From NCBI GenBank assembly GCA_029260215.1, contig JAJDDQ010000069.1, positions 1 through 35,361 on the forward strand: a stretch of 35,361 nt of DNA. Direction: 5' to 3'. The DNA is from Phycisphaerae bacterium. Lineage in GTDB: Bacteria; Planctomycetota; Phycisphaerae; UBA1845. The position numbers and the translations under genes are program-made. Of this stretch, positions 5,064 to 34,669 are shown in pieces (positions within the stretch are counted from its first letter, which is position 1; every line of letters begins with the position of its first letter). The notes under the pieces were generated by a model. It made no database searches, was not told the origin of the DNA, and saw only the letters and a program-made list of their open reading frames with translations.

Positions 5064-5089
5064 CAGCGACTCCTTTCGTCCGTACAAAA

Positions 5090-5101: not shown

Positions 5102-5182
5102 CGTTGGTAAGGACTTCTGGGCCGCTCAGCCCCACGAGGGCTGGCACGCTAAGTAGCGTTCGGCAAACAAGTTATGTTCACA

Positions 5183-9425: not shown

Positions 9426-9806
9426 GGAACACTCCTGTCCTTAAAGGCCCTCGACAAAGGTCGACCCGCCAGTATCAATCTGTTCGCTCCACCGCCGGCC
9501 CTGGATTCAGATGGTCCTTTTGGTGGCATTTCGGGACCCCGTGTCCGGACTCGGGCTTGCGCTGGCAGCGATCTGCCGGCGTTAGAAACGAATCCAATGG
9601 ACGATGATGATCGAAAACGATCCTATGAGGGCCTAGTGAGCGTTCCTTGAAGCGTGGTTGATCCAGCGCCGGCCCAGGTGATTGCGCTCGGTGGCCATTC
9701 TGTGATGCTGAAAAACCGCTAGAATGGAGCAGCGCGAAACGGAGGCTTGCAGCTCCAGCTTCGCGTGGTGTTCCAGCAGAACTTTACGCGGACGGTGGAG
9801 TGCGGT
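9426..9806. other. Divergent regulatory region, no gene seen
   Basis: A 381-base gap between the divergent DUF1569 and ECF sigma genes. It must hold promoters for both. A TAGAAT hexamer at 9720-9725 could be a -10 box for the sigma operon, but no acceptable -35 box lies 16-18 bases upstream, so it is not called. No long repeat or terminator was found. Confidence 0.5.
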
Positions 9807-10370: not shown

Positions 10371-10630
10371 ACAGCAATACCGAGCGGAGCAAAGAGCGAA
10401 TGCTGCAGTTGCTGGCGGATCACGCTACGGAAGTCTTGGATTCGACCTCCGCCACGGAGTTGGCCGAATTGCTGTCGCTGCATCCGGAGTATGATGAGTC
10501 CTACTTTGAGCCGGCGGTAGCTGCAATCGACCTCGCTTTGATGCCTCCGTCTTCGGAACCGCTACCCGAGGGACTACGCGACCGAATTCTGTTGGACGGG
10601 CGGCGGTTCCTGGAAACAGACGAGGATTGA
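10367..10630 (+). CDS. Small soluble anti-sigma-factor-like protein
   Basis: Acidic, helical protein of 87 residues whose start overlaps the sigma stop (ATGA). The pattern LQLLADHATEVLDSTSATEL then LSLHPEYDESYFEPAVAAID and LPEGLRDRILLDGRRFLE resembles the N-terminal sigma-binding region of planctomycete anti-sigma factors. Those proteins normally continue into a membrane helix and an outer domain; here the protein ends after the first domain, so it is cytoplasmic. No zinc-binding HxxxCxxC is present. A sensor is therefore needed elsewhere, and the next gene in the operon, the B12-binding protein, is the obvious candidate. Anti-sigma activity is inferred from similarity and operon position. 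Confidence 0.6.
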   Translation: MNSNTERSKERMLQLLADHATEVLDSTSATELAELLSLHPEYDESYFEPAVAAIDLALMPPSSEPLPEGLRDRILLDGRRFLETDED

Positions 10631-10637
10631 GATTCGC

Positions 10638-17724: not shown

Positions 17725-18217
17725 CAATTCACCCAATGTAATGCAGAGGCCCCGCGGCTCCTTGTTTATGCTCCAACGCGAACTTGTAGTCGCCGCAAGT
17801 CGAGACGAGGTATTTTCGTTCTTCTCAGATGCACAGAATCTGGATCGAATAACACCATCCTTTCTGCGGTTTCGCGTTCTCTCGCCACGTCCGGTTGCCA
17901 TGCAGGTCGGCACCCGCATCGAGTACGCGCTACGGGTGCACGGGATTCCGTTGCGTTGGACAAGCGAAATAACCGTCTGGGATCCGCCCCTTCGCTTCGT
18001 GGATGTGCAGCTTCGAGGACCCTACCGGTGGTGGCATCACGAGCATAGATTTGAGGACGTGGGCAACTCAACCAACGTTATCGACGAAGTGGTGTACGCG
18101 CCTCGGGGTGGACGATTGGTCCATGCACTCTTCGTGAAACGCGATCTCGATCGCATTTTCGACTTCAGGCAACAGACGCTGGCCGAAGTTTTTGCGAGTG
18201 ACAGAGGAGGCCGGTGA
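17717..18217 (+). CDS. SRPBCC (START-like) superfamily protein
   Basis: Protein of about 166 residues with an SRPBCC cyclase/dehydrase-type fold: LQRELVVAASRDEVFSFFSD at the start, then LDRITPSFLRFRVLSP, PLRWTSEITVWDPPLRFVDV and a closing helix (HALFVKRDLDRIFDFRQQTL). These proteins bind hydrophobic ligands and often sit in light-response clusters with photolyase and SDR genes. The GTG start at 17717 has AGAGG upstream and overlaps the SDR stop region; ATG 17739 or 17769 are possible shorter starts. The photolyase start follows its stop by 2 bases, so translation is coupled along this run. Confidence 0.88.
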   Translation: MNNNSPNVMQRPRGSLFMLQRELVVAASRDEVFSFFSDAQNLDRITPSFLRFRVLSPRPVAMQVGTRIEYALRVHGIPLRWTSEITVWDPPLRFVDVQLRGPYRWWHHEHRFEDVGNSTNVIDEVVYAPRGGRLVHALFVKRDLDRIFDFRQQTLAEVFASDRGGR

Positions 18218-18219
18218 TC

Positions 18220-18995
18220 ATGCGGGTGCTGATGTGGTTTCGGGCGGACTTGCGCGTCACCGACAACACGGCCCTGTATCACGCCTGCAAGGCAGCGAAC
18301 GACGGCGTACTGGCTGTCTTCACATTATGCCCGAAACAATGGGCGCAGCACGATTGGGGAAGTACGAAAGTCGACTTTTTGCTGCGGAATCTCGCTGCGC
18401 TTTCGGAATCGCTCGCCAAGCTGAATATCCCGATGTTGCTCGTTCAAGCCGGATCGTTCGCATCAGTACCGGCCAAGCTCGTACAGATCGCCAAGAGACA
18501 AAGATGCGACGCGCTGTTCTTCAATCGAGAGTACGAAGTCAATGAAGTCGCGCGCGATCGTGCGGTTTTGCGCAGATTCGAAAAGGAGGGAATCCAGGTA
18601 CACGAGTTCACGGATCAGGTCATACTGGATGTTGCGGAGATTCGGACAGGTAAGGGCGGTTGGTACACGGTCTACACACCATTTAGGCGCAAGTGGTGCG
18701 CAGTGTTGGAAGAACGTGGCCCGCCCCGGATCTGGCCGAAGCCGCGGCGTCAGGCAGCGTTGGGCATCAAATCAGATGCGATACCCAGTAAGCTAAGCGG
18801 CTTCACTCGAGGGAGTAGGGCAGATCTTTGGCCGGCCGGGGAAAAAGAGTCCGCAAAGCGCCTGCGCGGGTTTATCAGAGAACGCATTGAGAGTTACCAG
18901 GAGAATCGGGACTTTCCGGCTGTGGACGGCACAAGCACGCTCTCGCCCTACTTGAGTGCCGGCGTGATTTCACCGCGGCAGTGCATGGAAGGCGC
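18220..18995 (+). pseudogene. phr: DNA photolyase, truncated
   Basis: The gene starts well: GAGGAGG nine bases before ATG 18220 and a normal photolyase N-terminal antenna domain (MRVLMWFRADLRVTDNTAL, CDALFFNREYEVNEVARDR, GGWYTVYTPFRRKW). It enters the FAD-binding domain (STLSPYLSAGVISPRQCM) and then stops matching at about codon 257. The rest of the FAD domain, including the TWxxELxWREFY part, is absent. The frame continues to 19269, but that sequence is antisense to a WD40-repeat gene and looks random. Without the FAD site no repair activity is expected. The break is a tail-to-tail junction with the WD40 fragment near 18990-19000. Confidence 0.85.
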
Positions 18996-19504
18996 AAGCC
19001 GTCGGACCCAATGCTTGCCAGCACTAGCGAGCCGAGTGAACATATCGCGAGAACGCCCCCATCGTGGGCCTCGATTTGAGTTACACAACGGCGTTGGGCC
19101 ACGTCCCAGAGTCGGATGTGTCCGTCATCTCCGCCCGAGGCGAGTATGTCGTCCGTCACGAACGCGAGGCCGCACACGCCGGTGCCGACGGACTTTCCGT
19201 GGAACATCTCGAATATCGGCTTCGCGTTGGCCGGTGGGCGGTGCTTTTCGAGCGCGTACACCTGCATAAGACCTGCCCGAGTACCGGCCGCCAGTCGAGT
19301 GCCACTGGGGGACGCGGCCAGCGAGTAGACGGAGTATCCTCGACTCAACATCGCAACTGGTGCTACTGTGGCGTGATCTCCAGACGCGATCCAAGTCGCC
19401 AGCGACGGATTCGTGTGGCCGCCGGTGCCGAGGTAAAGCACGTCCGTCGCTCTTGAGCCCGGCTCAAGTCCGGCGAGGCTTGGTGCTGCGCGGGGTCTCG
19501 TCAT
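18990..19504 (-). pseudogene. WD40-repeat protein, 3'-truncated
   Basis: From ATG 19504, with GAGGT seven bases upstream, the frame encodes recognisable WD40 blades: YSVYSLAASPSGTRLAAGTR, VCGLAFVTDDILASGGDDGH then IRLWDVAQRRC, and EAHDGGVLAICSLGSLVLAS then IGSDG. The last blade loses its pattern at the GSDG position (GSDGLRLP instead of GSDGxxRLWD), exactly where the opposing photolyase also breaks. The frame runs on inside the photolyase region without WD40 character. Only about three blades remain of what is usually a seven-blade propeller, so it is called a truncated gene. Confidence 0.7.
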
Positions 19505-20959: not shown

Positions 20960-22414
20960 CTACTCTCTTCTGCCCTTCTTCGGACGAAAGTCCTCTTTCT
21001 TGAATCCGTGTTTTCGCATCATGGCGTAAACGGCACGCGAAGAAATGCCACTGTGAGCAGACGCGTCCACGAGTCGGCCGCGCGTGATGGATAGAAGGCG
21101 GTGTAAATACTCACGCTCAAGCTCGTTCAGATGGCTGTCGCGTACGTCTTTCCACGGCTTGTCTATCAGGTGAGTATGTTCTTGGTCGATGGCCGCTCCT
21201 GAATGAATACCATGAGCGACAGGAAGCGTTCGGTCCAACGCACGCTTCTCGACAATTGCGTTTGGAAGGTCATGGATCGTCAAGAACTGGCCTTGGCAAA
21301 GTATGATCGCCCGCTCAACCACGTTGATGAGTTCGCGAATGTTACCCGGCCATCCGTATTCAGACAGTACCTGCACAGCCTCATCGGAAAAAGCTGTTAC
21401 GGGTCGTCCCAACCGATCCTTAAACTCACGCAAGTACCGTTCCAACAGCTTCGGAATGTCCTCTGGGTGCCTTCGCAGCGGGGGTATCTCCAAGGTGACC
21501 ACACCCAGGCGATAGTAAAGATCTCTTCGGAAACGCCCGTCTTCGATCTCGACTTCCAGATTGCGATTCGTGGCGGCCATAATGCGAACATCAATCTCGA
21601 TCGTCTCTTCACTCCCCAGAGGCTGGATCATCCGTTCCTGTAACACGCGAAGGAGCTTTACTTGCAGATGCTTGGGAAGCTCGCCAATTTCATCTAGGAA
21701 GATCGTCCCACCATGACCCAGTTCGAAGTAACCACGTCGGTCCCTGGTCGCCCCGGTGAAAGCTCCTCGTACGTAGCCGAAGAGCTCGCCGTCAAGGAGC
21801 GTCTCCGGCATCGCCGCGCAGTTGACCGGAATGAATGGCTGCGAGGCCCTCGGGCTCTCTGAGTGAATCGCACGCGCGAGTCGCTCCTTACCGACACCAG
21901 TTTCACCGAGAACCAGCAGGGAGCTGTCCGGCTCAACGACACGCCGGACGATATTGAGAAACCCCTTCATCACGGGGTTCGGAGAGTCAAAGTCAGACAA
22001 TCGATAATCCGTTTCCGCGATTTCGCGTCGGATCCGCTCGACGCTTGCGTCGTGCCGGCGCAAAACGAACGATTGAATAGCCTGGCGCATCGTTTCATCG
22101 GGCAGCCGCGAATAGAGCACCGCGAAGCAGCCGGCGATCAGGAGGCGGGCGCGCTCTTCCGGATTCTCGCGGTTCCAGATAACGATGAGTTCTGGATGAT
22201 CGGGGAGGTTCCGGATCGCGGCGACCGTCTCCTCGATGGGCTCCGGAAGCGCCGGGTGTGAGGCAATGAGCAAATCGCCAGCCTCACCGACGCGGTCCCA
22301 AAACGGGCCACGAGTCGCCCCGCAGGTCACCGACAATCCCAGAGGCTCGAGGATTTCGGTCATTCGTTGAGCCAAAGGAGCCCGATGCGCCACGATGTGT
22401 ACACGAAGAAGCAT
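20960..22414 (-). CDS. Sigma54-dependent activator (NtrC family) with degenerate receiver
   Basis: Protein of 484 residues. The N-terminal ~120 residues look like a response-regulator receiver fold, but the position of the phospho-acceptor Asp reads LLIASHPALPEP, so the Asp is missing and normal phosphorelay control is unlikely. The AAA+ domain is complete: Walker A GETGVGKE, sigma54-contact motif GAFTGA, Walker B GGTIFLDEIGEL, arginine-finger region and YGWPGNIREL. The C terminus has a Fis-type HTH (GRLVDASAHSGISSRAVYAM). It would activate sigma54 promoters by ATP hydrolysis. It is divergent from the N-formylglutamate amidohydrolase-like gene, 240 bases apart, and is the likely local regulator of the peptide-ligase cluster. 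It has its own good sigma70 promoter. Confidence 0.95.
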   Translation of the reverse strand: MLLRVHIVAHRAPLAQRMTEILEPLGLSVTCGATRGPFWDRVGEAGDLLIASHPALPEPIEETVAAIRNLPDHPELIVIWNRENPEERARLLIAGCFAVLYSRLPDETMRQAIQSFVLRRHDASVERIRREIAETDYRLSDFDSPNPVMKGFLNIVRRVVEPDSSLLVLGETGVGKERLARAIHSESPRASQPFIPVNCAAMPETLLDGELFGYVRGAFTGATRDRRGYFELGHGGTIFLDEIGELPKHLQVKLLRVLQERMIQPLGSEETIEIDVRIMAATNRNLEVEIEDGRFRRDLYYRLGVVTLEIPPLRRHPEDIPKLLERYLREFKDRLGRPVTAFSDEAVQVLSEYGWPGNIRELINVVERAIILCQGQFLTIHDLPNAIVEKRALDRTLPVAHGIHSGAAIDQEHTHLIDKPWKDVRDSHLNELEREYLHRLLSITRGRLVDASAHSGISSRAVYAMMRKHGFKKEDFRPKKGRRE

Positions 22415-22584: not shown

Positions 22585-22599
22585 AGGCGCGTCACGTGC
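22585..22599 (+). promoter_or_regulatory. Candidate sigma54 promoter of the ligase cluster
   Basis: AGGCGCGTCACGTGC matches the -24/-12 consensus TGGCACGN4TTGC at 8 of 11 fixed positions, including both invariant GG and GC pairs with 10 bases between them. It lies about 57 bases before the first cluster gene and next to a divergent sigma54 activator. Two other GG/GC pairs nearby have wrong spacing. Chance occurrence cannot be excluded. Confidence 0.35.
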
Positions 22600-22609
22600 T
22601 CTACGTATT

Positions 22610-22655: not shown

Positions 22656-23429
22656 ATGGACGAAACCTGGAGGATGCACATCGGCGACGGTCAGCTGGTC
22701 GCGACCGCCATTCACGATGGCCACGATCTCAGGCCGGATGTTGCTGCAAACATGGCCCTTTCCGACGAGGAGCGGTTGCGTGAAGAGGATCCGTTCACCG
22801 GCGTGTGGTCGACGATGGCACCGACGCGCTTCATCTCGCTCACGTCGAGGTTCGAAGTCGACCTTAATCGACCCCGAGACAAGGCCGTCTATCTCACACC
22901 GGGAGATGCATGGGGTCTGCAGGTGTGGAATCGCCAGCCATCGGCGGAGCTCATCGCGCAATCGCTAAGAGAGTACGATTCGTTCTACTCCGGGATACGC
23001 AATGTGCTGGAGACGATCGAGCGCACGTTCGGGAAATTTGTCGTGTTTGACTTGCACACCTACAACCACCGGCGAGGCGGGCCGGGTGGCGTGGCAGCGG
23101 ACCAGGCGCGAAATCCGCAAGTAAACATCGGGACAGGGACTATGGAGCGATCACGTTGGACCAACATCGTCGATGGGTTCATGAGCGATTTGCGGGCCTA
23201 CGACTTTCCCGGAGGCGCGCTGGACGTGCGAGAGAACGTTAAGTTCCGTGGTGGACAGTTTTCGCGTTGGGTGCATGAGACGTTTCCTAAGACCGGCTGC
23301 GCGATCGCGATAGAGTTTAAGAAATTCTTCATGGACGAATGGACGGGCGACGCGGATCCGGCGCTGGTCCGCGCCATCGGTGAGGCGTTACGTTCGACCG
23401 TTCCGGGCGTGCTTGAAAAACTTGGGTGA
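22656..23429 (+). CDS. N-formylglutamate amidohydrolase-like protein
   Basis: Protein of 257 residues of the N-formylglutamate amidohydrolase (HutG-type deformylase) family, zinc-dependent amide hydrolases. Putative zinc ligands and motifs are AIHDGHDLRPDV near residue 17, FEVDLNRPRDKAVY, VVFDLHTYNHRR near residue 132 and a late acidic motif EFKKFFMDEWTG. The ATG at 22656 has AAGGAG six bases upstream; extensions to 22461 lack coding character. It is the first gene of a tight run: the next start is 3 bases after its stop. In histidine degradation this family makes glutamate from N-formylglutamate, but no hut gene is nearby, so here it may remove an acyl or amino-acid group from the product of the ATP-grasp ligases. 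Confidence 0.9.
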   Translation: MDETWRMHIGDGQLVATAIHDGHDLRPDVAANMALSDEERLREEDPFTGVWSTMAPTRFISLTSRFEVDLNRPRDKAVYLTPGDAWGLQVWNRQPSAELIAQSLREYDSFYSGIRNVLETIERTFGKFVVFDLHTYNHRRGGPGGVAADQARNPQVNIGTGTMERSRWTNIVDGFMSDLRAYDFPGGALDVRENVKFRGGQFSRWVHETFPKTGCAIAIEFKKFFMDEWTGDADPALVRAIGEALRSTVPGVLEKLG

Positions 23430-23432
23430 TTC

Positions 23433-25364
23433 ATGACACCGGCGCAAGCGACAAAGGAGAGCATTGCGAATGATCGGTTGATTCGTGCAGTTTGCACGCG
23501 CCTCGGGGAGAACAAGCGCGTGCGACGAAAGTTGCCGGTCTGGGGCAGGCTACACATCGATCGTCAACTCCCGTTCCTCTGCGTATACCGCCGCCCGATA
23601 GTCAGTACTGACAACGGAACCGATCGTCTCGTGACGACCGAGGCTTCCTACGTTTTTGCGTCAGCGTTGAAGGAACAAAGATCCGCCCTAACAGGTCTCG
23701 TTTCCGAGGTCGTACGCACGCTCGCGGCTGAATTCGGTGCGTTCTTGTTGCTGGAATTGTGGTCGGGGGACGAGGGGGACGTGGAGGATGTTGCCAACGC
23801 AGCTGCGCCGCAGCTCGCCGTCCCTCGGTTTCGACTCTTTGCGCCCAGGGATGATGAGTTGGACTCATTTGTGGAAAAGTTCGGAGAATCGCTCTCGCGA
23901 ATCAAGGTGTCCAAACTAGCGGCGGAGGTAGAGGTCGTGCGGTCGACACGTTGCAGTCCGCCTGAACTGGCCCCTGTCCTGCCTCCCGCCGCCGCCCGAC
24001 AACTGCGATGTACGACACTCGGTCTGCAAATCCGCCCGATCTACCGACACCCCGAAACCGATGACCTCTATCCGGTCATCCTTCGGGAGGTTCGCCGGGA
24101 GCTGACACGTGGTCTCCGTCTGTCGTTCTACGAGTTCGCCCGCACGCACACGACGCAGCAGCCCAAACATTTTCATGCGCTCGGACGACGCGCCGTCGTG
24201 AAGGCGGTGTGGGAAGTGGATCGGCAGATTGCGGAGGTTTCTGACGCCTTTGATTTTCTTCTGCAGGTCACCCCGGTCAATGCGGAAAAAGCGTGGCACC
24301 AGTTTCGGAGGCATCGCCTCGAGCGAGCGCCCGTCTTTCGGTATCGGCCGTTGCCGGTCGATCCGGTCGTCTTGAAGCGTACGCTGTATGCCATACCTCT
24401 GGAACGCGTGGAAGATCCGACGCTGTGGTCGCTGTTTCGCAATAAGCAGGATGAGCTTGATCGGAAGATCACGATGCTCGTTGACATCAACACACACAAC
24501 TTCGTCCACGGTAGTTTGCAGGTATTCGGCGGGGTTAATGACGAGCTACGGGCGATGGCGATAGATCTGCTCACGAACTTGCCGAGTCGGACGCGCGTCG
24601 GCGCGAAGAAGGGGCGCTTGGATGCCAAAGCATTCGCTGAGCGCGCGCAGACAGAGCTGGACTGCCTGCGGCTACAGATGCCGGACTGCACGGCTCGTGT
24701 CCGAATTCGTGATGACATCGTCAGTACGATGGTGTCGGGCGGATCGTTGCTGGTTCGCAAGAGCGCGCGGATTGCGGCTGGAAGGGTCGCGGCCGTGTTG
24801 CAGCACGAAATCGGAACTCACGTCTTGACCTACTGGAACGGTCGCGCTCAACCGCTCCGCCAACTCTATTCAGGCCTTGCGGGCTACGAGGCGACGCAGG
24901 AGGGGTTGGCCGTGTTGGCGGAGTACCTGGTTGGCGGCCTAAGTGCTCGGCGCTTACGCACGCTGGCGGCGCGCGTGCTCGCGGTGCGTCGTATGATTGA
25001 CGGCGCATCGTTTGTCGAGACGTTTCGGGAGTTGGATCGAACGTACGAATTCGATCAGGAAACGGCTTTTTCCGTGACGATGCGCGTTTATCGTGGCGGG
25101 GGCCTGACGAAGGATGCGATATACCTCCGCGGGGTTATCCAACTGCTCGATTATCTCAAACGCGGCGGCGATCTCGATTCGCTGTTCGTCGGCAAGCTGG
25201 CCCTCGATCATGTGCCGATCATGAAAGAGTTGCAGTGGCGCAGAGTACTGCGTGCGGCGCCACTGCGCCCAACGTACCTCGACGCGCCAGAATCGGCCGA
25301 GCGACTTGAGCGCGTTCGAGCGGGGCTGACTGTGTTCGAACTAATCAAGGACGGCCGGTCATGA
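23433..25364 (+). CDS. DUF1704 / QEGLA-motif metallopeptidase
   Basis: Protein of 643 residues of the DUF1704 family (annotated elsewhere as flavohemoglobin expression-modulating QEGLA motif protein). The zinc site is visible: HEIGTH at residues 458-463, followed by ATQEGLAVLAEY with Q489 and E490. The ~450-residue N-terminal part is longer than the catalytic domain and includes TRVGAKKGRLDAKAFAERAQ. Human members (MATCAP/KIAA0895 group) are carboxypeptidases that remove the C-terminal tyrosine of tubulin, a residue added by an ATP-grasp ligase (TTL). Here too the peptidase gene is followed by ATP-grasp ligase genes, with an ATGA overlap to the first. A role trimming a ligase-added residue is therefore attractive but inferred. 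Confidence 0.92.
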   Translation: MTPAQATKESIANDRLIRAVCTRLGENKRVRRKLPVWGRLHIDRQLPFLCVYRRPIVSTDNGTDRLVTTEASYVFASALKEQRSALTGLVSEVVRTLAAEFGAFLLLELWSGDEGDVEDVANAAAPQLAVPRFRLFAPRDDELDSFVEKFGESLSRIKVSKLAAEVEVVRSTRCSPPELAPVLPPAAARQLRCTTLGLQIRPIYRHPETDDLYPVILREVRRELTRGLRLSFYEFARTHTTQQPKHFHALGRRAVVKAVWEVDRQIAEVSDAFDFLLQVTPVNAEKAWHQFRRHRLERAPVFRYRPLPVDPVVLKRTLYAIPLERVEDPTLWSLFRNKQDELDRKITMLVDINTHNFVHGSLQVFGGVNDELRAMAIDLLTNLPSRTRVGAKKGRLDAKAFAERAQTELDCLRLQMPDCTARVRIRDDIVSTMVSGGSLLVRKSARIAAGRVAAVLQHEIGTHVLTYWNGRAQPLRQLYSGLAGYEATQEGLAVLAEYLVGGLSARRLRTLAARVLAVRRMIDGASFVETFRELDRTYEFDQETAFSVTMRVYRGGGLTKDAIYLRGVIQLLDYLKRGGDLDSLFVGKLALDHVPIMKELQWRRVLRAAPLRPTYLDAPESAERLERVRAGLTVFELIKDGRS

Positions 25365-26389
25365 GAATTGGAATCGTCGTCAACGTCATGGACAGCGAGG
25401 TTGCCGGACAAACAACATACCGCTTGGCTGCTGACGCGGCCAACCACGGTCACGATACGTGGCTGATGAATGCCGGGACGCTCTCTTACGAGCCCGACGA
25501 TCGGGTTCGTGCATTTGCCCGAAAGGTTCCGGAGAGCAGCTCCTCCGAGAAGCTATCGGCCGCGCTTCGGAGCGATGATGCCGAGAACGCGTGGATCACG
25601 GTTGATGATCTCGATGTCCTGCTATTGCGAAGCAATCCCTCTGTTCAGCAACCCTGGGCGCAGACAGCGTCGTTGAATTTCGGGCGCATTGCCATGAGGC
25701 ACGGTGTCATTGTGCTCAATGATCCCAATGGCCTTGCCAAGGCGATGAACAAACTGTACCTGCAGACCTTTCCGGAGAGGGTATGGCCTAGGACGCTCAT
25801 CACGCGTAGCGAAAGCCGAATCGCGGCGTTCGCGGAGAAGGAGGGTACCATTGTCATCAAACCACTTCAGGGCTCGGGCGGCAAAAACGTCTTCATCGTC
25901 CGTTCAAGCGATAAGCCCAATATGGACCAGATGGTCCAGGCAATCAGACGTGACGGGTACGTCGTCGCCCAGGAGTATCTACCGGCTGCCGTCGAAGGTG
26001 ATACACGACTGTTCTTGATGAATGGACCGCCGTTACAACACAAGGGCAAGTATGCAGCGTTCAGGCGTATCCGAACGGGGGATGACATGCGCAGCAACAT
26101 CCATGCCGGCGGAAAGCTCCGCAGGGCAGAACTGGATGACACGATGCTCAGGTTGGCGGAGATCGTGCGCCCCAAGCTCGTGCAGGATGGCATGTTCCTG
26201 GTCGGGCTGGACATTGTGGGCGAGAAGATCATGGAGATTAATATATTCAGCCCCGGCGGATTGGGAAGCGCTCAGAAATTCGAGAAGGTCAACTTCTCTG
26301 AGGCAGTGCTTCTTTCGCTTGTGCGAAAGGTCTCCTACATGAAGTTCTATCGCCGGAACTTCAGTAACGTGGAATTGGCGACGCTCTAG
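25361..26389 (+). CDS. ATP-grasp ligase 1 (glutathione-synthetase-like), divergent paralog
   Basis: Protein of 342 residues, GshB/RimK-like ATP-grasp fold. ATP-grasp enzymes join a carboxylate to an amine through an acyl phosphate. Motifs: MRIGIVVNVMDSE (pre-ATP-grasp strand), WPRTLITRSESRI, IVIKPLQGSGGKNVF (ATP-binding Lys and Gly loop), VVAQEYLPAAVEGDTRLFLM, DDMRSNIHAGG and MEINIFSPGGLGS (metal-binding Glu/Asn). It is 6 residues shorter than the other two copies, and where they read RNDP near residue 94 it reads RSNP (S91, N92). In glutathione synthetases this region carries a conserved RKDPP motif near the substrate, so its substrate may differ. Its start overlaps the DUF1704 stop. Confidence 0.92.
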   Translation: MRIGIVVNVMDSEVAGQTTYRLAADAANHGHDTWLMNAGTLSYEPDDRVRAFARKVPESSSSEKLSAALRSDDAENAWITVDDLDVLLLRSNPSVQQPWAQTASLNFGRIAMRHGVIVLNDPNGLAKAMNKLYLQTFPERVWPRTLITRSESRIAAFAEKEGTIVIKPLQGSGGKNVFIVRSSDKPNMDQMVQAIRRDGYVVAQEYLPAAVEGDTRLFLMNGPPLQHKGKYAAFRRIRTGDDMRSNIHAGGKLRRAELDDTMLRLAEIVRPKLVQDGMFLVGLDIVGEKIMEINIFSPGGLGSAQKFEKVNFSEAVLLSLVRKVSYMKFYRRNFSNVELATL

Positions 26390-26418
26390 AGTGAATGATT
26401 GATTAGGAGACTGAAGTT

Positions 26419-27465
26419 ATGAAGATCGGTTTTTTGGTGAATGATATCAAGACGGAAGAAACCGGCTACACGACCAGCCGCCTCGCCGCGACGGCAGTTG
26501 GCCTCGGACATGAGGTCTGGACGATGGGCGTCGGTGATCTGGCATACGACGCAGACGAGAAGATCCGCGCGCGGGCCCGTGGAGTCACGAAGAAGAAGTA
26601 TGCCAGTTCGGAAGTATACTTGCGCGAATTGCAAGGGCAAAACGCCGTCAAACAGCGGATCACGGTGGACGACTTGGACGTCCTGTTGCTGCGGAACGAC
26701 CCCTCGACGGACGCAAACTCTCGCCCCTGGGCAGCCACAGCCGGGATTCAGTTCGGCCGCATCGCAATGCGCCATGGCGTGATCGTCCTGAACGACCCAA
26801 ACGGCCTTGCGCGGGCGATGTCGAAGATGTACTTCCAGACATTTCCCGAGGAAGTCCGGCCCAAGACGGTAATCACGCGCGACCGTGACGAGATCAAGGC
26901 GTTTGCAAAGGAGCAGGCTGAGACCATCGTTCTCAAACCCCTGCAGGGCTCCGGCGGCCAGAGTGTTTTTCTGGTCAGACCGGAAGATGTCCCCAACCTT
27001 AATCAGATGATCGACGCCGTGAGCCGCGACGGCTACGTGATTGCGCAGGAGTACCTTCCGGCGGCGGCTGAAGGAGATATGAGGCTGTTCCTGATGAACG
27101 GTCAGCCGCTTCGCCACAAGGGGAAATATGCCGCCTTTCGACGAGTCCGCACGGGAGGTGACATGCGTTCAAACATCCACGCCGGCGGCAAGCTGAAGGA
27201 GGCCGAAGTTGACACTACCGCGCTTCGCATTGCCGAGATTGTCCGGCCGAAGCTCGTGCAGGACGGAATGTTCCTGGTCGGGCTGGATATCGTTGGCGAT
27301 AAACTGATGGAAATCAACGTGTTTAGCCCCGGAGGCCTCGGCAGCGCTCAGAAATTCGAGGGCGTGAACTTCAACCGGGCGGTCATTCACGCCCTGGAAC
27401 GTAAGGTGCAGTACATGGAATTCTACCGCCGCAATTTCGACAACGTAGAAATGTCGACGCTATGA
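26419..27465 (+). CDS. ATP-grasp ligase 2 (glutathione-synthetase-like)
   Basis: Protein of 348 residues, closely similar along its whole length to the genes before and after it, so the three arose by tandem duplication. It keeps RNDP (N93, D94), RPKTVITRDRDEI, IVLKPLQGSGGQSVF, VIAQEYLPAAAEGDMRLFLM, GDMRSNIHAGGKL and MEINVFSPGGLGS. All ATP-grasp catalytic features appear intact. The ATG has AGGAG nine bases upstream and follows the first copy by 29 bases. Reaction class (carboxylate-amine ligation) is from family knowledge; substrate unknown. Copies 1 and 2 share AQKFE near the C terminus, while copy 3 has ARQFE. A role in true glutathione synthesis is unlikely because no gshA-like ligase is present in the cluster. 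Confidence 0.94.
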   Translation: MKIGFLVNDIKTEETGYTTSRLAATAVGLGHEVWTMGVGDLAYDADEKIRARARGVTKKKYASSEVYLRELQGQNAVKQRITVDDLDVLLLRNDPSTDANSRPWAATAGIQFGRIAMRHGVIVLNDPNGLARAMSKMYFQTFPEEVRPKTVITRDRDEIKAFAKEQAETIVLKPLQGSGGQSVFLVRPEDVPNLNQMIDAVSRDGYVIAQEYLPAAAEGDMRLFLMNGQPLRHKGKYAAFRRVRTGGDMRSNIHAGGKLKEAEVDTTALRIAEIVRPKLVQDGMFLVGLDIVGDKLMEINVFSPGGLGSAQKFEGVNFNRAVIHALERKVQYMEFYRRNFDNVEMSTL

Positions 27466-27555
27466 TGGCGCGCTTGGCGCTGGCTTCTTGTTAGTCCGGG
27501 GCCGAGGGTGAAACCGAGAGTGTCGACGTGCGGCTGCACGAGGAACGGAGACGAC

Positions 27556-28602
27556 ATGAGAATCGCTTTCTTTGTAAACGACGTGATGACGGAAGAGCAC
27601 ATCTACACCACGACCCGATTGGCGATGGCGGCGCTAAACCGAGGACACGAGTCCTGGCTGATTGGCGCCGGAGATTTGGCATTGGATCCGGACGATGTGA
27701 TACGTGCTCGTGCGCGGGCTGCGCCAAAATCATCCTACAAGAACACCAGAACCTATCTTGCCGAGCTGCAGGGGTCGAAAAGTAGGACGGAGCGGATTTC
27801 CGTCGATGATCTTGACGTGCTCATGTTGAGAAACGATCCGGCCGAGGACCAGGGCCGGCGGAATTGGGCGCAAACGGCGGGCATCATGTTCGGGCGGGTC
27901 GCGGTCAAGCGTGGCGTCATCGTGCTAAACGACCCCACGGCCCTCGCCATGGCCATGAACAAAATGTACTTTCAGTTATTTCCCGAAGAAGTTAGACCCA
28001 AGACTCTTATCACCCGTGACCGCGATGAAATCAGACAATTCGCCGCGGAGCATGGTAGCGACATCGTGATCAAACCACTCCAGGGCTCGGGCGGACAGGG
28101 CGTATTCCGCGTGCGACACAATGACCTAGCCAACGTTAACCAGATGATCGAGTCGATCACGCGCGACGGATACATCGTGGCCCAAGAATACCTCAAAGAC
28201 GCCGAGGAGGGCGACACACGTCTGTTCATGATGAACGGTCAGCCGTTGCGACATAAAGGAAAGTACGCCGCCTTTCGACGACTGCGCAAAGGCGATGACA
28301 TGCGCAGCAACATCCACGCAGGCGGAGAAAAGGCTGCAGCGATCATCGATGAAAACGCGCTGCGCATTGCCGAGATCGTACGCCCGAAGTTGGTGGAGGA
28401 CGGCATGTTTCTGGTGGGACTTGACATCGTCGGTGACAAGCTGATGGAGATCAATGTTTTCACTCCGGGCGGACTGGGCAGCGCACGGCAATTCGAGAAG
28501 GTCAACTTTGCCCACGCTGTGATCCAAGCCTTGGAGCGCAAATGGGATTACATGAAATACTATCGCCGGAATTTCAATAACGTGGACATGGCTACGCTAT
28601 GA
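27556..28602 (+). CDS. ATP-grasp ligase 3 (glutathione-synthetase-like)
   Basis: Protein of 348 residues, third tandem copy. Motifs: RNDP (N93, D94), RPKTLITRDRDEIRQF, IVIKPLQGSGGQGVFRV, IVAQEYLKDAEEGDTRLFMM, DDMRSNIHAGGEK and MEINVFTPGGLGS. The ATG at 27556 has GGAG five bases upstream; the earlier in-frame codons from 27508 are not supported. A 90-base gap separates it from copy 2, the longest gap in the run. Its stop overlaps the start of the DAC-like gene by ATGA, so ligase 3 and the DAC-like protein are translationally coupled. Of the copies it differs most around residues 55-75, upstream of RNDP. Confidence 0.94.
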   Translation: MRIAFFVNDVMTEEHIYTTTRLAMAALNRGHESWLIGAGDLALDPDDVIRARARAAPKSSYKNTRTYLAELQGSKSRTERISVDDLDVLMLRNDPAEDQGRRNWAQTAGIMFGRVAVKRGVIVLNDPTALAMAMNKMYFQLFPEEVRPKTLITRDRDEIRQFAAEHGSDIVIKPLQGSGGQGVFRVRHNDLANVNQMIESITRDGYIVAQEYLKDAEEGDTRLFMMNGQPLRHKGKYAAFRRLRKGDDMRSNIHAGGEKAAAIIDENALRIAEIVRPKLVEDGMFLVGLDIVGDKLMEINVFTPGGLGSARQFEKVNFAHAVIQALERKWDYMKYYRRNFNNVDMATL

Positions 28603-29558
28603 GCGATCCGGCCGGGTTTGATATCAGGACTATGAAACCAAACCAAGGACAGGGTGAGTTGATCCGAACCGACGCGGCGCTGGCACGTATGATTGGCCAG
28701 ATAGCTCGATCTGCAAACGCGGATGCGGTCGTCTGTGGAACGGAAACCGGCGCGTTGTTTCGCAAGCTGTTCGAGCATGCCGAGGATGTGCGGTTGATCG
28801 CCGCAACGCCCAACGTCGATACATACGATGCTTTGGTTGGTGATGGGTTCGAAGCGGTCCGGCTGTCGCTTCGTGTTGCGAACAAGTACGGGCAGGCGCG
28901 GCACGGTGTGTCCACTGCCTTGAACGCGGGCGCCGTATCCGTGGGAGATCTGGTTGTCTGCGCGGTTGGCCACGATCTCTGTCACGGAGTTGGCGACCTC
29001 ATTCTGGTTACCGACGTGGAAGCGAACGTCTCCAATGTGGCTCTTTCTGAGATGATCAAGCTGACAGACGGCATTCGACCAAGCGTGTTGGAAGCCGCAT
29101 TGCGGCTCGCCTGCAAGATCGGCGACGTAGCGCAACGAGGAAAGCGCGTCGGTGCCCTGTTTGTGCTTGGTGATTCAGAAAACGTGCTTGAGCGTTCACG
29201 GCAGTTGGTTCTGAACCCATTCCAGGGGCACGGTGACCAAGTCCGAATGCTGACTGATTCTCGGATCGACGAAATGTTGATCGAGCTTGCGAAACTCGAT
29301 GGCGCTTTCATCGTTCGTGGAGACGGTCTTATTCGAACGGCAGCGGCATTCCTGGCGACATCAAAGGTTGACGTGAAGGTTCCAGTCGGTCTAGGCGCGA
29401 GGCATGTCGCGGCCGCCGCAGTCACGGCACAGACAGAAGCGACCGCCGTAGTCGTGTCGGCAACGGACGGTTTCGTCAGGGCGTTTTCCGGCGGCGACTT
29501 GGTCTTACAGATGGACCCGGCTGTGCCACTTGGCCCGTTCTGGCAGTCTCCCTCTTAA
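28599..29558 (+). CDS. Pyruvate-kinase-C-like domain fused to a DAC (DisA_N) domain
   Basis: Protein of 319 residues. Residues about 10-140 resemble the C-terminal alpha/beta domain of pyruvate kinase (ADAVVCGTETGALFRKLFE, VGDLVVCAVG, DLILVTDVE). Residues about 190-310 match the diadenylate cyclase domain: DGAFIVRGDGLIRTAAAFLA (DGA at 234-236), then VGLGARHVAAAAVT (RH at 268-269) and TAVVVSATDGFVRAFSGG. DAC enzymes make c-di-AMP from two ATP and need DGA plus GTRHR-type motifs. Here GTRHR is GARHV, so the Thr and last Arg are replaced and activity may be reduced, altered or lost. A similar PK-C plus DAC layout is, as I recall, found in archaeal DacZ. Coupled to ligase 3; no membrane segment. 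Confidence 0.8.
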   Translation: MSDPAGFDIRTMKPNQGQGELIRTDAALARMIGQIARSANADAVVCGTETGALFRKLFEHAEDVRLIAATPNVDTYDALVGDGFEAVRLSLRVANKYGQARHGVSTALNAGAVSVGDLVVCAVGHDLCHGVGDLILVTDVEANVSNVALSEMIKLTDGIRPSVLEAALRLACKIGDVAQRGKRVGALFVLGDSENVLERSRQLVLNPFQGHGDQVRMLTDSRIDEMLIELAKLDGAFIVRGDGLIRTAAAFLATSKVDVKVPVGLGARHVAAAAVTAQTEATAVVVSATDGFVRAFSGGDLVLQMDPAVPLGPFWQSPS

Positions 29559-29696: not shown

Positions 29697-31070
29697 ATGA
29701 CCGCTGCAGATGAGCAACGCCCTTGGGTCGAACTCGAGAAACTCGTCGAGGAGTCTGACGCCGAACGAATAGAAGCGTTTCTCGAGGCATTGCCTCCAGG
29801 CGAGCCAGCGCGTGCCCTGTCGCATCTCCATCCACAGGACCAGGTACGTTTGCTCACCGCACTCGATCCGGAACACGCAGCCGAACTCGTTGAGCAGATT
29901 CCAGACGCCCAAGCCGCAGAACTGTTCGAGCACCTTGAACCACAGGCTGCGGCGGCCATCGTGGACGAATTGCCGAGCGATGAACAGGCGGACCTCATCG
30001 GCGATCTTCCGCGCGAGGAGGCCGACGCTATCCTCGACGCGATGGATCCGGCGGAGGCTCGCGACGCGCGCTTCCTCAGCCGGTACCCGGACGACGTCGC
30101 AGGCGGCTTGATGATCACCGAGTTCCTCGCATACGCTGAGACATACACGGTGGCGGATGTGGTGGATGACCTCCGCGCGAATGCCGATGAGTATCGCGAA
30201 TACAACGTCCAGTATGCGTATGTGACATCAGACAGCTCCGTGCTCGTCGGGGTCCTTCAACTGCGTGACCTTCTGCTCGCGCGAAGGGGGCAGGCCATTA
30301 GCGAATTAATGCTCCGCGACCCCTTGACCGTTGCTGACCTTGCGAACCTAAACGAGTTGCACGATTTCTTCGACCGGCACCCATTCTACGGCATTCCGGT
30401 CACGGACGAGCAGCACGCTATCATCGGCGTCATCCGCAGAGCGGCGGTTGAAGAGGCGCTCGCCGAGCGTAGCGATCGCAACTACCTCAAGTCGCAGGGA
30501 ATCGTTGGCGGGGAGGAACTCCGCTCAATGCCTCTTTTCCTCCGGGCGCGCCGTCGGCTCTCGTGGCTCAGTGTGAACATTTTATTAAACGTCCTCGCAG
30601 CCAGCGTGATCGCATTTTATCAGGAGACGCTGGCAGCCGTGATCGCTCTGGCAGTGTTCCTCCCGATCATCTCAGATATGAGCGGCTGCTCCGGAAATCA
30701 GGCGGCGGCCGTGAGCATGCGGGAACTTGCGTCGGGCCTCGTGCGACCTGCGGAAGTGCTATACGTACTCGGCAAGGAAGTGCTGCTTGGGATAATCAAC
30801 GGTGTCGCCTTGGGGCTACTGATTGCGACTGTTGCGTGGCTGTGGAAAGGTAACCCGTATCTCGGCCTTGTCGTTGGCGGAGCGCTTGCCCTGAACACCA
30901 CGATTGCCGTGAGCATCGGCGGATGCATTCCGCTGTTCCTCAAGCGTATGGGTAAGGATCCGGCACTTGCGTCCGGTCCGATTCTGACCACGGTCACGGA
31001 CATGTGCGGATTCTTTATTGTGTTGAGCTTTGCCTCGGCGCTTCTTCCGCAGCTCCAGAGTATTCCTTAG
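29697..31070 (+). CDS. mgtE: MgtE-type magnesium transporter
   Basis: Integral membrane Mg2+ transporter of 457 residues, the usual MgtE length. The N-terminal superhelical domain (repeats such as HAAELVEQIPDAQAAELFEH and EQADLIGDLPREEADAIL) is followed by paired CBS domains (about 135-255; RYPDDVAGGLMITEFLAY, FYGIPVTDEQHAIIGVI) that sense cytoplasmic Mg2+. Five membrane helices follow, with RRLSWLSVNILLNVLAASVI, LAVFLPIISDMSGCSGNQAA (pore region), the GGALALNTTIAVSIGG helix and a final VTDMCGFFIVLSFASALL. The ATG has AGGAG seven bases upstream. Its place after the DAC-like gene is notable because c-di-AMP controls ion transport in many bacteria, but direct control is not shown. Confidence 0.97.
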   Translation: MTAADEQRPWVELEKLVEESDAERIEAFLEALPPGEPARALSHLHPQDQVRLLTALDPEHAAELVEQIPDAQAAELFEHLEPQAAAAIVDELPSDEQADLIGDLPREEADAILDAMDPAEARDARFLSRYPDDVAGGLMITEFLAYAETYTVADVVDDLRANADEYREYNVQYAYVTSDSSVLVGVLQLRDLLLARRGQAISELMLRDPLTVADLANLNELHDFFDRHPFYGIPVTDEQHAIIGVIRRAAVEEALAERSDRNYLKSQGIVGGEELRSMPLFLRARRRLSWLSVNILLNVLAASVIAFYQETLAAVIALAVFLPIISDMSGCSGNQAAAVSMRELASGLVRPAEVLYVLGKEVLLGIINGVALGLLIATVAWLWKGNPYLGLVVGGALALNTTIAVSIGGCIPLFLKRMGKDPALASGPILTTVTDMCGFFIVLSFASALLPQLQSIP

Positions 31071-31207
31071 ATGTGGACCCGCCCGAGTCGTTACCGTACT
31101 GCAACGGCTGATTTCCGGGTCAATGTGCCGTTGGAGGCCTACGCCTGCATGCACAAGCCCGGTAGGATGTGCCTGCCGCACACGTGCTGCGTTTGGAGAA
31201 CCAGAGG

Positions 31208-34200
31208 ATGATCGCGAAAAGCGCGCGTTACATCGGAATCGCCACTGCGCTCGCCTTGACGGCCGGCGCTTCAGTTCGGGAAGCACCCGCTCAGCAACGC
31301 AGTGAGCAAACTCCTCCACCCGATGGCTTGACCGTCGGGGCTGTGCAGGAGCAACTCAAACTAGTGGAAGCAGACTCCAGTCTCGAAGAGGGCCTCAAGA
31401 TACGCCTCGTCGAACTGTACAAGCAAGCCGCCGACGACCTCACGCGGGCCGACGGGTGGGTGAAGAAGACCGCGGAGTTCGAGGCAGCAAGGCAGGAGAC
31501 CCCTGCTAGGCTTGAGAGCATTCGAACTGAACTCGCGGCGCCGGTTGCCGACGCTATTCCCGAGATTCCAGAGGATGCGTCGGCCGCCCAACTCGAGCAA
31601 ACGCTTGCCCAAGTCGAGGCCCAACTCAAGGCGGCGCGGGAACACGCGACGAACCTCGATGATGAACGTAAACGCCGGGCGGACCGGCGTGCGGAGCTCC
31701 CTGGTATCACGACGGCGGCCAACCAACGACTTGAAGAAGCGACACGCGAACTTAGCGCTCTGACGGAGGACACCGAGTTACCCGAGGCGCTGACAGCGCG
31801 GAGAACCGCGCTACGGGCGAGGAAGTGGGCGTTCGAACACGAGATCCGATCGTGCGAGGCAGAGATTGCGAGCTACGACGCACGGGGAGAATTGCTGACT
31901 GCTCGGCGTGACAAAGCATCTCGCGAAATCGCACGGCTCGAGTCGTTGGCGGGGGCGTGGCAGGTTGCCGTCGGTGAGCGTCGTCGATCGGAGGCGGCCG
32001 CAGCGACTGAGGCCGCTGAAAAGGCTCGGCGTGCCGCCGCCCGCTCGCACCCCGTCGTTCGCCGCATCGCGGAGGAAAACACCGGGTGGGCAGAACGTCG
32101 AGCCGCCGACGCGCTGGCTGACAAAATACAGCAGGCGGCGAGCCAACACGAGTCGACCACAAAGGCACTCAATGGGCTGTCCAGCGACTATGCAAGCATC
32201 AAATCTAAGGTGAAAGCGGCCGGACTCACCCACGCGATGGGGCTGCTGCTTCGTCGACAGCAAGAGGTGCTTCCGAATGTGAAGGATCATCGTGCGCATA
32301 TCTACGCCCGAGAGGCTGAGATTTCACGGGTCCAGGTCGAGTTGATCGAGTTGGAGGACGGGCGATCAGACCTTGTTACGGGGCTTGAGCCATTGGTCCG
32401 CGCTTCCTTGGCCGAGCTAGACTCGTCAGTGCCGCAAGAGGAGCGGGACGAGGTCGAGACCGCCGTGCGCGAGCTTCTCCAAGCACGACGGGGCTACCTC
32501 GATGCCCTGATTGGTGACTACAACAGCTATCTAGTCAGGCTCGTCGACCTGGACAACGAAGAACGGCGATTCGTCAATCGGATAAAGAGCTTTCGCGACT
32601 ACGTTGGTGAGCGAGTCCTTTGGGTCCGCAGCACGTCGCTCCCCCGGACAGCCGATCTGCAGCACACGGCGGAAGCGATTGCGTGGCTCATCGAACCACA
32701 AAACTGGTCCAGTGCGCTCCGATCGGCCGACAAGACCGTTCGGTCCAACTCCGTCGTTGCTTCGATTGCTATTCTCGCAATCGGTGCGCTCGGTGCATTC
32801 CAGCGCCGCCTTCGCGCCGAAATACGCAGCGTTGCGGATGCTGCCTCGAAGCCAACGGCACGAGAGTTCGGCCCGACGCTGCTAACGCTTGTCTGGTCGA
32901 GTTTGATTGCGGTGCTGTGGCCGGGGGTCGTGATGATCGCAGGATGGGCACTGGCATCGGGAGCGAACGGGACTGATTTCGGAAACGCCATCGGCACGGC
33001 ACTCGGTGCGGCTGCAGTGGCGTTCCTGCTCATCGAGGTATTCCGACAACTCTGCCGGCCGGGTGGCCTCGGTGAAGCGCACTTCGGCTGGCCGAGTCGG
33101 GGTGTGCGGCATGCGCGCAAGCATCTGTTGTGGCTTCTCGCTGCGGGCGTGCCGCTGGTGTTTGTAGTGGTTGCCGTGGAGGCGAGTGGCGAGGATGCCT
33201 GGCAGAACTCACTGGGGCGGAGCGCGTTCATCGTAGCACAACTCCTGCTTGCGATCTTCGCTGGCAAAGTCCTTCGTCCCAGAGGGGGAGCACTGGAAGA
33301 GTTCCTGCGTCTCAATCCAAGTGGCTGGCTTGGTCGTTCGCGGTTCGCATGGTACCCGCTTGCCGTGGGGCTGCCGATTGTCTTGGCTGTACTTGCGGCC
33401 ATTGGCTTCCACTACACGGCATTGAAACTCGCAGTCGGTGTTCACACGACGTCGTGGGTCATAGTCGGACTGGTCTTGCTAAACGGTCTTGCGTTGCGCT
33501 GGTTGCTCGTGTCGCGACGGCGCCTCGCGATCGATCAGGCGCGGAAGCGCCGTGAAGCAGAAGGATCCGAGGGTGAGAGCAAAGAGCAACAGGCGAGGGA
33601 GCCTATCATTGACCTGGGGAGCATAAGTGCGCAGACGAGGAGTCTGCTTCGAACGGTCGTTGTGTTGAGTTTCTTCGGTGCGCTCTGGGTCGTTTGGGCT
33701 GACATGTTACCAGCGCTCGGAATTCTTGACAGCGTGGAGCTGTGGTCTGCAACGGAGAGAGTATCGGAGACCGTCACCGCGACCGATGGGAGTACCTCAG
33801 CGCGCTTGGTCGAAAAGCCGCGACCGGTCACGTTGCAGAATCTCCTGCTAGCGATGTTGATCCTGGCGATCACGTTCGTTGCCAATAGAAACGTCGCCGG
33901 GCTGCTTGAGATTGCGGTTCTTCAACGCGTTCACATGAAGGCCGGCGAGCGATACGCGGTCGCCACAATAACCAAATACACTGTTACCGTCGTCGGTCTG
34001 GTTGTTGGTTTCGGGGCGATCGGGATCGGCTGGGCAAAGGTCCAATGGCTGGCTGCGGCCATGGTCGTGGGTCTCGGGTTTGGGCTCCAGGAGATCTTCG
34101 CCAACTTTGTTTCGGGGCTCATTCTGCTGTTCGAGCGCCCAATTCGCATTGGCGACACCGTAACCGTCGGTTCTATTAACGGCAACGTGACACGAATCCA

Positions 34201-34669
34201 GATCCGCGCCACGACCATAACCGACTGGGACAAGAAGGAGTTGGTGATTCCCAACAAGGAATTCGTGACGGGTCAGGTCATCAACTGGTCGCTGTCGGAC
34301 CCTGTGCTGAGGGTGATCATCCCCGTTGGTATTGCCTACGGTTCCGACACCGAATTGGCAGAATCGACCCTGCACAGGGTCGCGCAGGAAGTCAAGGACG
34401 TGCTACCGGATCCCGCGCCCCAAGTGCTGTTCCTAGAGTTCGGGGACAGTTCGCTGAACTTCGAGCTGCGCGTCCACGTTCCGAGCATCGACCACTTTGT
34501 GAAGGTCAGGCACGTCCTGCACAAAGCGATCGACCGTGAGTTCCGAAAGGCCGGCATCGAAATCGCGTTCCCGCAGAGAGATATTCACGTACGCTCGATC
34601 AGGGCCGCTCTTCCCGTTGAGAATCAAGCGGCGCCCGAGCGGAATGCCGTCCCTCCGCCGGCTCCTTGA
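31208..34669 (+). CDS. Large MscK/MscM-type mechanosensitive channel
   Basis: Protein of 1153 residues, similar in length to E. coli MscK and MscM. An N-terminal signal (YIGIATALALTAGASVREAP) leads to a long coiled-coil periplasmic region (about 50-470) rich in Glu, Arg and Ala. About ten membrane helices follow from residue ~510. The C-terminal MscS domain is clear: the pore helix (VVGLGFGLQEIFANFVSGLI then LLFERPIRIGDTVTVG), the beta domain (GNVTRIQIRATTITDWDKKE then LVIPNKEF) and the cytoplasmic vestibule ending AGIEIAFPQRDIHVRS. It would release solutes upon hypo-osmotic shock. The ATG at 31208 begins the signal peptide and has GGAG upstream. It is co-directional with mgtE, 137 bases apart, in an ion/osmotic neighbourhood. 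Confidence 0.95.
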   Translation: MIAKSARYIGIATALALTAGASVREAPAQQRSEQTPPPDGLTVGAVQEQLKLVEADSSLEEGLKIRLVELYKQAADDLTRADGWVKKTAEFEAARQETPARLESIRTELAAPVADAIPEIPEDASAAQLEQTLAQVEAQLKAAREHATNLDDERKRRADRRAELPGITTAANQRLEEATRELSALTEDTELPEALTARRTALRARKWAFEHEIRSCEAEIASYDARGELLTARRDKASREIARLESLAGAWQVAVGERRRSEAAAATEAAEKARRAAARSHPVVRRIAEENTGWAERRAADALADKIQQAASQHESTTKALNGLSSDYASIKSKVKAAGLTHAMGLLLRRQQEVLPNVKDHRAHIYAREAEISRVQVELIELEDGRSDLVTGLEPLVRASLAELDSSVPQEERDEVETAVRELLQARRGYLDALIGDYNSYLVRLVDLDNEERRFVNRIKSFRDYVGERVLWVRSTSLPRTADLQHTAEAIAWLIEPQNWSSALRSADKTVRSNSVVASIAILAIGALGAFQRRLRAEIRSVADAASKPTAREFGPTLLTLVWSSLIAVLWPGVVMIAGWALASGANGTDFGNAIGTALGAAAVAFLLIEVFRQLCRPGGLGEAHFGWPSRGVRHARKHLLWLLAAGVPLVFVVVAVEASGEDAWQNSLGRSAFIVAQLLLAIFAGKVLRPRGGALEEFLRLNPSGWLGRSRFAWYPLAVGLPIVLAVLAAIGFHYTALKLAVGVHTTSWVIVGLVLLNGLALRWLLVSRRRLAIDQARKRREAEGSEGESKEQQAREPIIDLGSISAQTRSLLRTVVVLSFFGALWVVWADMLPALGILDSVELWSATERVSETVTATDGSTSARLVEKPRPVTLQNLLLAMLILAITFVANRNVAGLLEIAVLQRVHMKAGERYAVATITKYTVTVVGLVVGFGAIGIGWAKVQWLAAAMVVGLGFGLQEIFANFVSGLILLFERPIRIGDTVTVGSINGNVTRIQIRATTITDWDKKELVIPNKEFVTGQVINWSLSDPVLRVIIPVGIAYGSDTELAESTLHRVAQEVKDVLPDPAPQVLFLEFGDSSLNFELRVHVPSIDHFVKVRHVLHKAIDREFRKAGIEIAFPQRDIHVRSIRAALPVENQAAPERNAVPPPAP

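Follow-up and report, generated by a model that had tools for sequence, protein, structure and literature searches.

Why would a bacterium place several enzymes predicted to form amide or peptide bonds directly beside enzymes predicted to break them? The question is raised by a contig of 35,361 nucleotides from a Phycisphaerae bacterium (Planctomycetota; assembly GCA_029260215.1, contig JAJDDQ010000069.1), here called the window, in which six genes on one strand encode an FGase (N-formylglutamate amidohydrolase)-type zinc amidohydrolase, a long-form MATCAP/QEGLA (DUF1704) metallopeptidase, three GshB-like ATP-grasp ligases (A, B and C), and a DacZ-like PK_C + DAC protein (Table 1). In this order the genes are spaced by a 3-base gap, an ATGA overlap, a 29-base gap, a 90-base gap, and a second ATGA overlap. 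The FGase was taken to start at ATG 22656 and ligase C at ATG 27556, despite longer TTG/GTG frames; with the latter start, the ligase model aligned from residue 1. A first-pass annotation had described this packing and named these families, and both descriptions were borne out, the former by the coordinates of the open reading frames (ORFs) and the latter by Pfam and NCBIfam matches.

The conserved core of the cluster is the trio of FGase, MATCAP, and ligase, and its linkage is beyond chance. Named genomes were scanned with 18 aligned long-form MATCAP sequences, and the best 79 of at least 553 loci were analyzed (loci and genomes are cited by L and G numbers where needed). The order FGase, MATCAP, ligase on a single strand, with gaps of less than 700 bases, was found in 59 of the 79 loci; counted singly, the FGase was present in 69 loci, the ligase in 75, and the DAC gene in 1. 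PF08014 was matched in 5 of 60 near relatives and in 47 of 294 genomes of the phylum (window genome included in both), and all 13 phylum genomes exceeding the NF009110 cut-off also contained MATCAP (13/13 vs 47/294 overall, hypergeometric P 9e-12, with the window's own genome counted in 13, 13, and 47). Below that cut-off, G250 (399 bits) also had a MATCAP. The first-pass annotation had staked its cluster on conserved linkage in relatives, and such linkage is present. By their tree labels, the trio loci covered 14 phyla. The closest relatives of the window locus among the named genomes scanned were two Phycisphaerae metagenome-assembled genomes (L075 and L076). The trio was annotated on plasmids in Mesorhizobium and Shinella; FGase and MATCAP were annotated on pSymB of Sinorhizobium meliloti, with the ligase 18 bases further on in strain 2011. 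With the window proteins as queries, 17 short-form MATCAP loci gave no FGase and a single 40-bit ligase match. Because short-form loci are thus nearly devoid of partners, the partnership with FGase and ligase seems to be a trait of the long form. Phages yielded a single weak MATCAP match.

The full six-gene set was rejected as a unit. The linkage of FGase, MATCAP, and ligase stands, whereas the six do not hold together as one system: the number of ligases differs from locus to locus, and the DAC gene, found in 4 of 24 window/long-form loci, looks from sequence comparison like a lineage-specific recruit. Within the family, 50 of 51 genomes had a DAC match, and the window genome (G000) had three. 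The DAC of the cluster shared 90% identity with its counterpart in the G009 cluster, 69% with that in the G023 cluster, and 34-40% with three resident DacZ-like proteins, and all six proteins contained DGA and GARH. Its PK_C + DAC architecture and its DGA and RH motifs agree with DacZ; its NF041371 score was 162.1 bits at a cut-off of 430. In place of the last R of the RHR motif, the cluster DAC has V and the resident paralogs have T, S, or A. The idea that the cluster DAC is catalytically dead (RHR reads RHV) was provisionally dropped because the resident DacZ-like paralogs likewise lack the last Arg. Cyclic di-AMP (c-di-AMP) is linked to osmotic control, which fits the context of the cluster. 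Variation was also seen within the module: in five loci from Verrucomicrobia and Planctomycetota (L099, L103, L142, L145, and L147) it occurred in tandem with 3 ligases and 2 or 3 MATCAPs, and a plasmid of Vibrio sp. HDW18 carried a long QEGLA gene (L159, 7320-9311) with no ligase nearby in the (incomplete) annotation.

The FGase exceeded the PF05013 gathering cut-off and retained the conserved His/Glu/His; H20, E43, E44, D45, D132, and H134 were invariant among 25 aligned relatives. No NCBIfam family matched the protein (P0001) at E 0.001, and a PDB sequence search with the FGase profile retrieved nothing. In the MATCAP protein, H458, E459, H463, and E490 were invariant among 18 relatives. 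The structure model of this protein (mean predicted local distance difference test score 87.8) matched human MATCAP (7z5g, Z 24.6, 20% identity) with residues 276-639 and an N-formylglutamate amidohydrolase (2q7s, Z 13.7) with residues 35-240, in a fold list that leaves room for other folds. Fold, HExxxH motif, and downstream Glu place the protein with the MATCAP peptidases, for which removal of a C-terminal residue is here a prediction; the flavohemoglobin-modulating role of QEGLA (TIGR02421) comes from the family name only. Compared with FGase profiles, the N-terminal half scored 86% (P 5e-6) and the C-terminal control 0.1%, and in the profile alignment Trp110 of the N-terminal domain took the place of the His in the FGase motif DLHTYNH. 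Profile and model together identify the additional N-terminal half of long MATCAP as a degenerate FGase fold. In L047 and L055, an FGase match replaces this dead domain, giving FGase-MATCAP fusions (the FGase part of L055 looks degenerate by eye, without DxH), and in Photobacterium sp. GJ3 an FGase-MATCAP ORF of 665 residues overlaps the end of a ligase ORF. Human MATCAP/TMCP1 (KIAA0895L), a tubulin carboxypeptidase, has the same peptidase fold and, in the available part of the source, the same HExxxH motif and downstream Glu (PMC10499314). Unlike the human enzyme, the bacterial one carries the added dead FGase domain and adjoins genes for an ATP-grasp ligase and an FGase.

The nearest fold to the model of ligase B was GshB (1gsa, TMt 0.86), followed by RimK (TMt up to 0.82); the peptide-maturation ATP-grasp ligases PsnB and PruB were also among the matches. 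GshB residues R210, R225, and R233, which we take to be functional, align to arginines of the window ligase. In a quick tree, ligases A, B, and C fell into three separate clades, each common to other lineages: A grouped in a 14-row clade with ligases of Gemmatimonadota, Verrucomicrobiota, and Pirellulaceae, and C in a 7-row clade of Planctomycetota. This placement suggests that the three are probably old subtypes and not products of recent duplication. Unlike GshB, the window ligases end in an additional tail of 17 residues, which extends past the point where the alignment with E. coli GshB stops and is predicted with moderate confidence to be a short helix. This fixed tail is the strangest observation of the analysis. 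The count took in ligases with an intact 3' end and a score of at least 300 bits, duplicates removed, and by this definition left out the lower-scoring, tail-less ligases of L047 and L158. In this set, 105 of 105 shared the same end column and 95 of 105 had Leu as last residue; by contrast, ragged ends were seen in the 98 MATCAPs and 74 FGases that the loci of these ligases supplied. The tail was found in five of five further family ligases but neither in the Photobacterium-type ligase nor in any of the six nearest paralogs, one of which had a short-form MATCAP within the sequence read. Two of the five further tailed ligases had a partner in the stretch read, namely a MATCAP fragment (L187) and an FGase (L185). 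Another of the five, at L172, 10670-11707 (G303), lies on a contig and in a genome with no MATCAP match.

The window genes immediately beyond the cluster encode an MgtE magnesium transporter and a giant MscS-type mechanosensitive channel. Across the 79 loci, recurrent neighbors were MscS, a sigma-54 activator, AA_permease (SLC12-like), MgtE, CorA, an ABC ATPase, CNNM/CorC, and an RCK-domain ion channel. For enrichment, the 47 loci with at least 12 kb of sequence (46 genomes) were used. MscS occurred in 13 of 47 loci, which by record title come from 9 phyla (0.60 copies expected from genome-wide Pfam counts), MgtE in 6 (0.19 expected), and CorA in 5 (0.13 expected), where the background counts come from Pfam searches and the flank counts from self-built profiles of differing sensitivity. 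The 13 MscS loci include L104 (only MS_channel_1st_1) and three Poribacteria loci; the MgtE count is the initial 7 minus L145, a CNNM protein. In Shinella, cation/H+ antiporter genes adjoin the trio. Clustering of the neighboring ORFs revealed no fourth gene shared by a majority of the 79 loci. Upstream of the cluster, a divergent NtrC-type sigma-54 activator is a possible regulator: members of its family were found by phmmer in 12 of 79 loci, and its REC part matched 8 of 118 other loci searched, equivalent to 6 distinct records. Of the 80 upstream regions scanned, two, those of L112 and L083, contained a full -24/-12 match ahead of the FGase gene. Sigma-54 control of the cluster, suggested by these sequence matches, is a lead only. 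Among further observations on neighbors, ORFs of 154 and roughly 490 residues recur past the trio in L142 (10173-12106), L145, and L147 and resemble CheW and CheR by eye. On a plasmid of Pseudoalteromonas sp. Bsw20308 (L160, 5461-6741), a QEGLA/MATCAP gene for which no ligase is annotated is found close to betI, betB, betA, and a BCCT transporter gene (glycine betaine).

In the available excerpt of a study of Photobacterium damselae at 1% vs 3% NaCl, A0J47_RS17020 ('GshB', treated by the authors as glutathione synthetase) was upregulated 38.42-fold and A0J47_RS17025 (QEGLA) 27.51-fold (PMC10308900). From the consecutive locus tags and the GJ3 locus, we infer that this pair corresponds to the ligase and FGase-MATCAP. 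For V. vulnificus, VV2_1203 (COG3930) and VV2_1204 (glutathione synthetase) are listed in the accessible portion of a further source (PMC3091676).

The conserved linkage, the FGase-MATCAP fusions, and the joint induction in the Photobacterium excerpt argue for a joint role of ligating and trimming enzymes. To this extent the ligation/trimming hypothesis put forward in the first-pass annotation is partly supported, but not as its exact six-gene system. The explanation we favor, tentatively and with a probability of about 0.45, is a ligation/trimming module acting on a small peptide tied to the osmotic or ionic state. What the analysis establishes is the trio with its conservation, folds, active-site motifs, ligase tail, and context, from which we infer the enzyme activities, the common substrate, and the osmotic role. 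The conserved residues presumed to form the active sites, the separate clades of the three ligase subtypes, and the lack of both gamma-Glu-Cys ligase families searched in the window genome also favor this explanation. In such a module, the GshB-like ligases would add residues to a carboxylate, the three subtypes probably with different specificities. The MATCAP peptidase would take off a C-terminal residue, and the FGase would cleave an N-acyl or terminal amide, either in that compound or in one related to it. Binding or assembly is the probable role of the dead FGase domain in MATCAP. The common substrate would most likely be a small peptide that acts as ligand or solute and whose amount is set by osmotic or ionic conditions. 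A peptide adjusted in this way would explain the channels, the Mg2+ transporters, and the lineage's DacZ-like cyclase nearby, so that the osmotic idea floated earlier gains some support from context. NAGGN is a known peptide osmolyte system, and its idea of an ATP-grasp ligase plus a peptidase resembles the trio; the six window proteins matched no NAGGN model in NCBIfam.

Several observations weigh against this small-peptide module. Twenty of the 79 loci fell outside the counted order, comprising contig-end cases as well as rearranged copies or true variants, and G303 (NF009110, 382 bits) had no MATCAP match anywhere in its genome. For three of the five further tailed ligases (L172, L186 on a 6-kb contig, and L188), the sequence read contained no MATCAP and no FGase. 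MscS, MgtE, and CorA were all lacking in 28 of the 47 loci. The neighbor families were picked post hoc for their recurrence in the same loci, and the Poisson values are therefore not independent tests; the MgtE and MscS genes of the window are not independent evidence either, since L075 and L076 are closely related to the window. In the P. damselae excerpt, RimK also rose at low salt (52-fold), as did hundreds of further genes (PMC10308900), and the increase of both ligase and peptidase at low salt would fit neither simple synthesis nor simple breakdown of an osmolyte.

Taken at face value, the automatically assigned names (glutathione synthetase, N-formylglutamate amidohydrolase) would instead make the trio unrelated housekeeping neighbors, i.e., genes for glutathione synthesis, histidine degradation, and a peptidase, and at least one gamma-Glu-Cys ligase family match, in some cases weak, was present in 24 of the 47 trio genomes. 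The other 23, including that of the window, had neither family: no PF04107 or PF04262 match was found in G000 (97.1% complete), with other routes not searched. Against GshB model NF003573 (cut-off 272), ligases A, B, and C scored 209.8, 219.2, and 215.2 bits, and against TIGR01380 (cut-off 299.05) 201.4, 205.5, and 199.8 bits, missing both equivalog cut-offs. Given the missed cut-offs and the lack of a match to either gamma-Glu-Cys ligase family, canonical glutathione synthesis by the window genes, which the first-pass annotation had raised against its own proposal, is unlikely. Histidine degradation was set aside: the FGase has PF05013 in common with N-formylglutamate amidohydrolase/HutG but differs from it in the lack of an NCBIfam match, in its partners MATCAP and ligase, and in its dead twin domain within MATCAP, and no hut gene was seen among the neighbor-cluster representatives viewed, hut genes not having been searched by name. 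The kept gene order and the existence of fusions also speak against unrelated genes, an explanation that we regard as very improbable, and the names given to the trio, including flavohemoglobin-modulating protein, as misleading. Somewhat better, though still improbable, is tailoring of a natural product or ribosomal peptide, with the ligases building a secondary metabolite and the hydrolases maturing or detoxifying the product. PsnB and PruB among the fold matches and the varying ligase number would agree with it, but no recurrent precursor, transporter, or tailoring family stood out among 859 clustered neighbor ORFs of at least 100 residues (short precursor ORFs were not examined), and the presence of the trio in 14 labeled phyla suggests basic physiology.

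Next in rank after the small-peptide module, although unlikely, is a cycle on a protein tail, in which residues that the ligases attach to the C-terminus or a side chain of a protein would be trimmed by MATCAP, the ligase's own tail possibly being substrate or docking site. TTL and MATCAP act on tubulin and RimK on S6, RimK adding Glu to the protein C-terminus. The closeness of the MATCAP domain to the human tubulin carboxypeptidase, the rank of RimK as next-nearest ligase fold, the common end of the ligase tails beside the ragged MATCAP and FGase ends, and the absence of the tail in the nearest paralogs favor this cycle. Unlike RimK, the window ligases stayed below the TIGR00768 cut-off of 143.4 (63.8, 69.6, and 77.8 bits). 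Moreover, no common fourth gene offers itself as target, the tail, a predicted helix, may have a purely structural role or simply characterize the clade, the ligases adjoining fused FGase-MATCAP end differently (L047 and L158), tailed ligases occur without a MATCAP nearby, and the FGase would have no obvious part. More doubtful still is a bacterial counterpart of tubulin tyrosination, a switch in which the ligase would attach C-terminal residues to a protein tail and MATCAP would detach them. The switch would be tied to the osmotic state, to ion channels, and, in the window lineage, to c-di-AMP, and its target could possibly be the near-invariant NFxNxxxATL-type tail of the ligase. Were the tail cycle true, tail trimming of the MATCAP type would predate tubulin.

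Each family of the trio is known by itself. Iyer et al. (2009) reportedly described ATP-grasp peptide ligases in operons with peptidases. The literature searched, which did not cover that survey, yielded no account of the trio or of the dead FGase domain, and none of the fusions or the tail, which would make these four the new elements. Resolving the trio could reveal a new peptide with a part in osmotic or ionic physiology, put right glutathione annotations such as that of the induced Photobacterium gene in the excerpt cited above, and show what MATCAP enzymes do where tubulin is absent. Among the bearers of the trio is the tractable Sinorhizobium meliloti 2011.

Table 1. Features of the cluster and its surroundings in the window; scores in bits, with cut-offs in parentheses.
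Feature	Position	Strand	Basis
FGase-type zinc amidohydrolase	22656..23429	+	PF05013 66.9 (28.9)
Long-form MATCAP/QEGLA (DUF1704) metallopeptidase	23433..25364	+	PF08014 308.5 (27); TIGR02421 QEGLA 359.4 (338.65)
Degenerate FGase-fold domain of MATCAP protein (predicted)	23535..24155	+	About residues 35-241; profile comparison and 2q7s fold match
MATCAP catalytic domain (predicted)	24258..25349	+	Residues 276-639; HExxxH at 24804-24821, QEGLA at 24897-24911
GshB-like ATP-grasp ligase, subtype A	25361..26389	+	NF009110/PRK12458 417.9 (408)
GshB-like ATP-grasp ligase, subtype B	26419..27465	+	NF009110/PRK12458 483.6 (408)
GshB-like ATP-grasp ligase, subtype C	27556..28602	+	NF009110/PRK12458 480.5 (408)
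Conserved 17-residue C-terminal ligase tail	A 26336-26386, B 27412-27462, C 28549-28599	+	Shared end column
DacZ-like PK_C + DAC protein	28599..29558	+	PF02457 DAC 67.2 (27); PF02887 PK_C 31.2 (28)
Divergent NtrC-type sigma-54 activator, possible regulator	20960..22414	-	Via homologue L112: Sigma54_activat + HTH_8
Weak sigma-54 -24/-12-like site	22585..22600	+	8/11 consensus letters
MgtE magnesium transporter (context)	29697..31070	+	PF01769, PF03448, CBS
Giant MscS-type mechanosensitive channel, 1166 residues (context)	31169..34669	+	PF12794, PF12795, PF00924, PF21082

Elsewhere in the window, a ParA-like ATPase (1133-2020, minus strand) and a phage-integrase-family recombinase (3876-5147, minus strand) point to a possible mobile element, and a protein with two fasciclin stretches is encoded at 7422-8621 (minus strand). 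A sigma-70-family factor, a B12-binding-domain protein, and a photolyase N-terminal domain, encoded within 9747-11699 and 18214-19269, perhaps belong to a light/B12-type regulation unrelated to the cluster.

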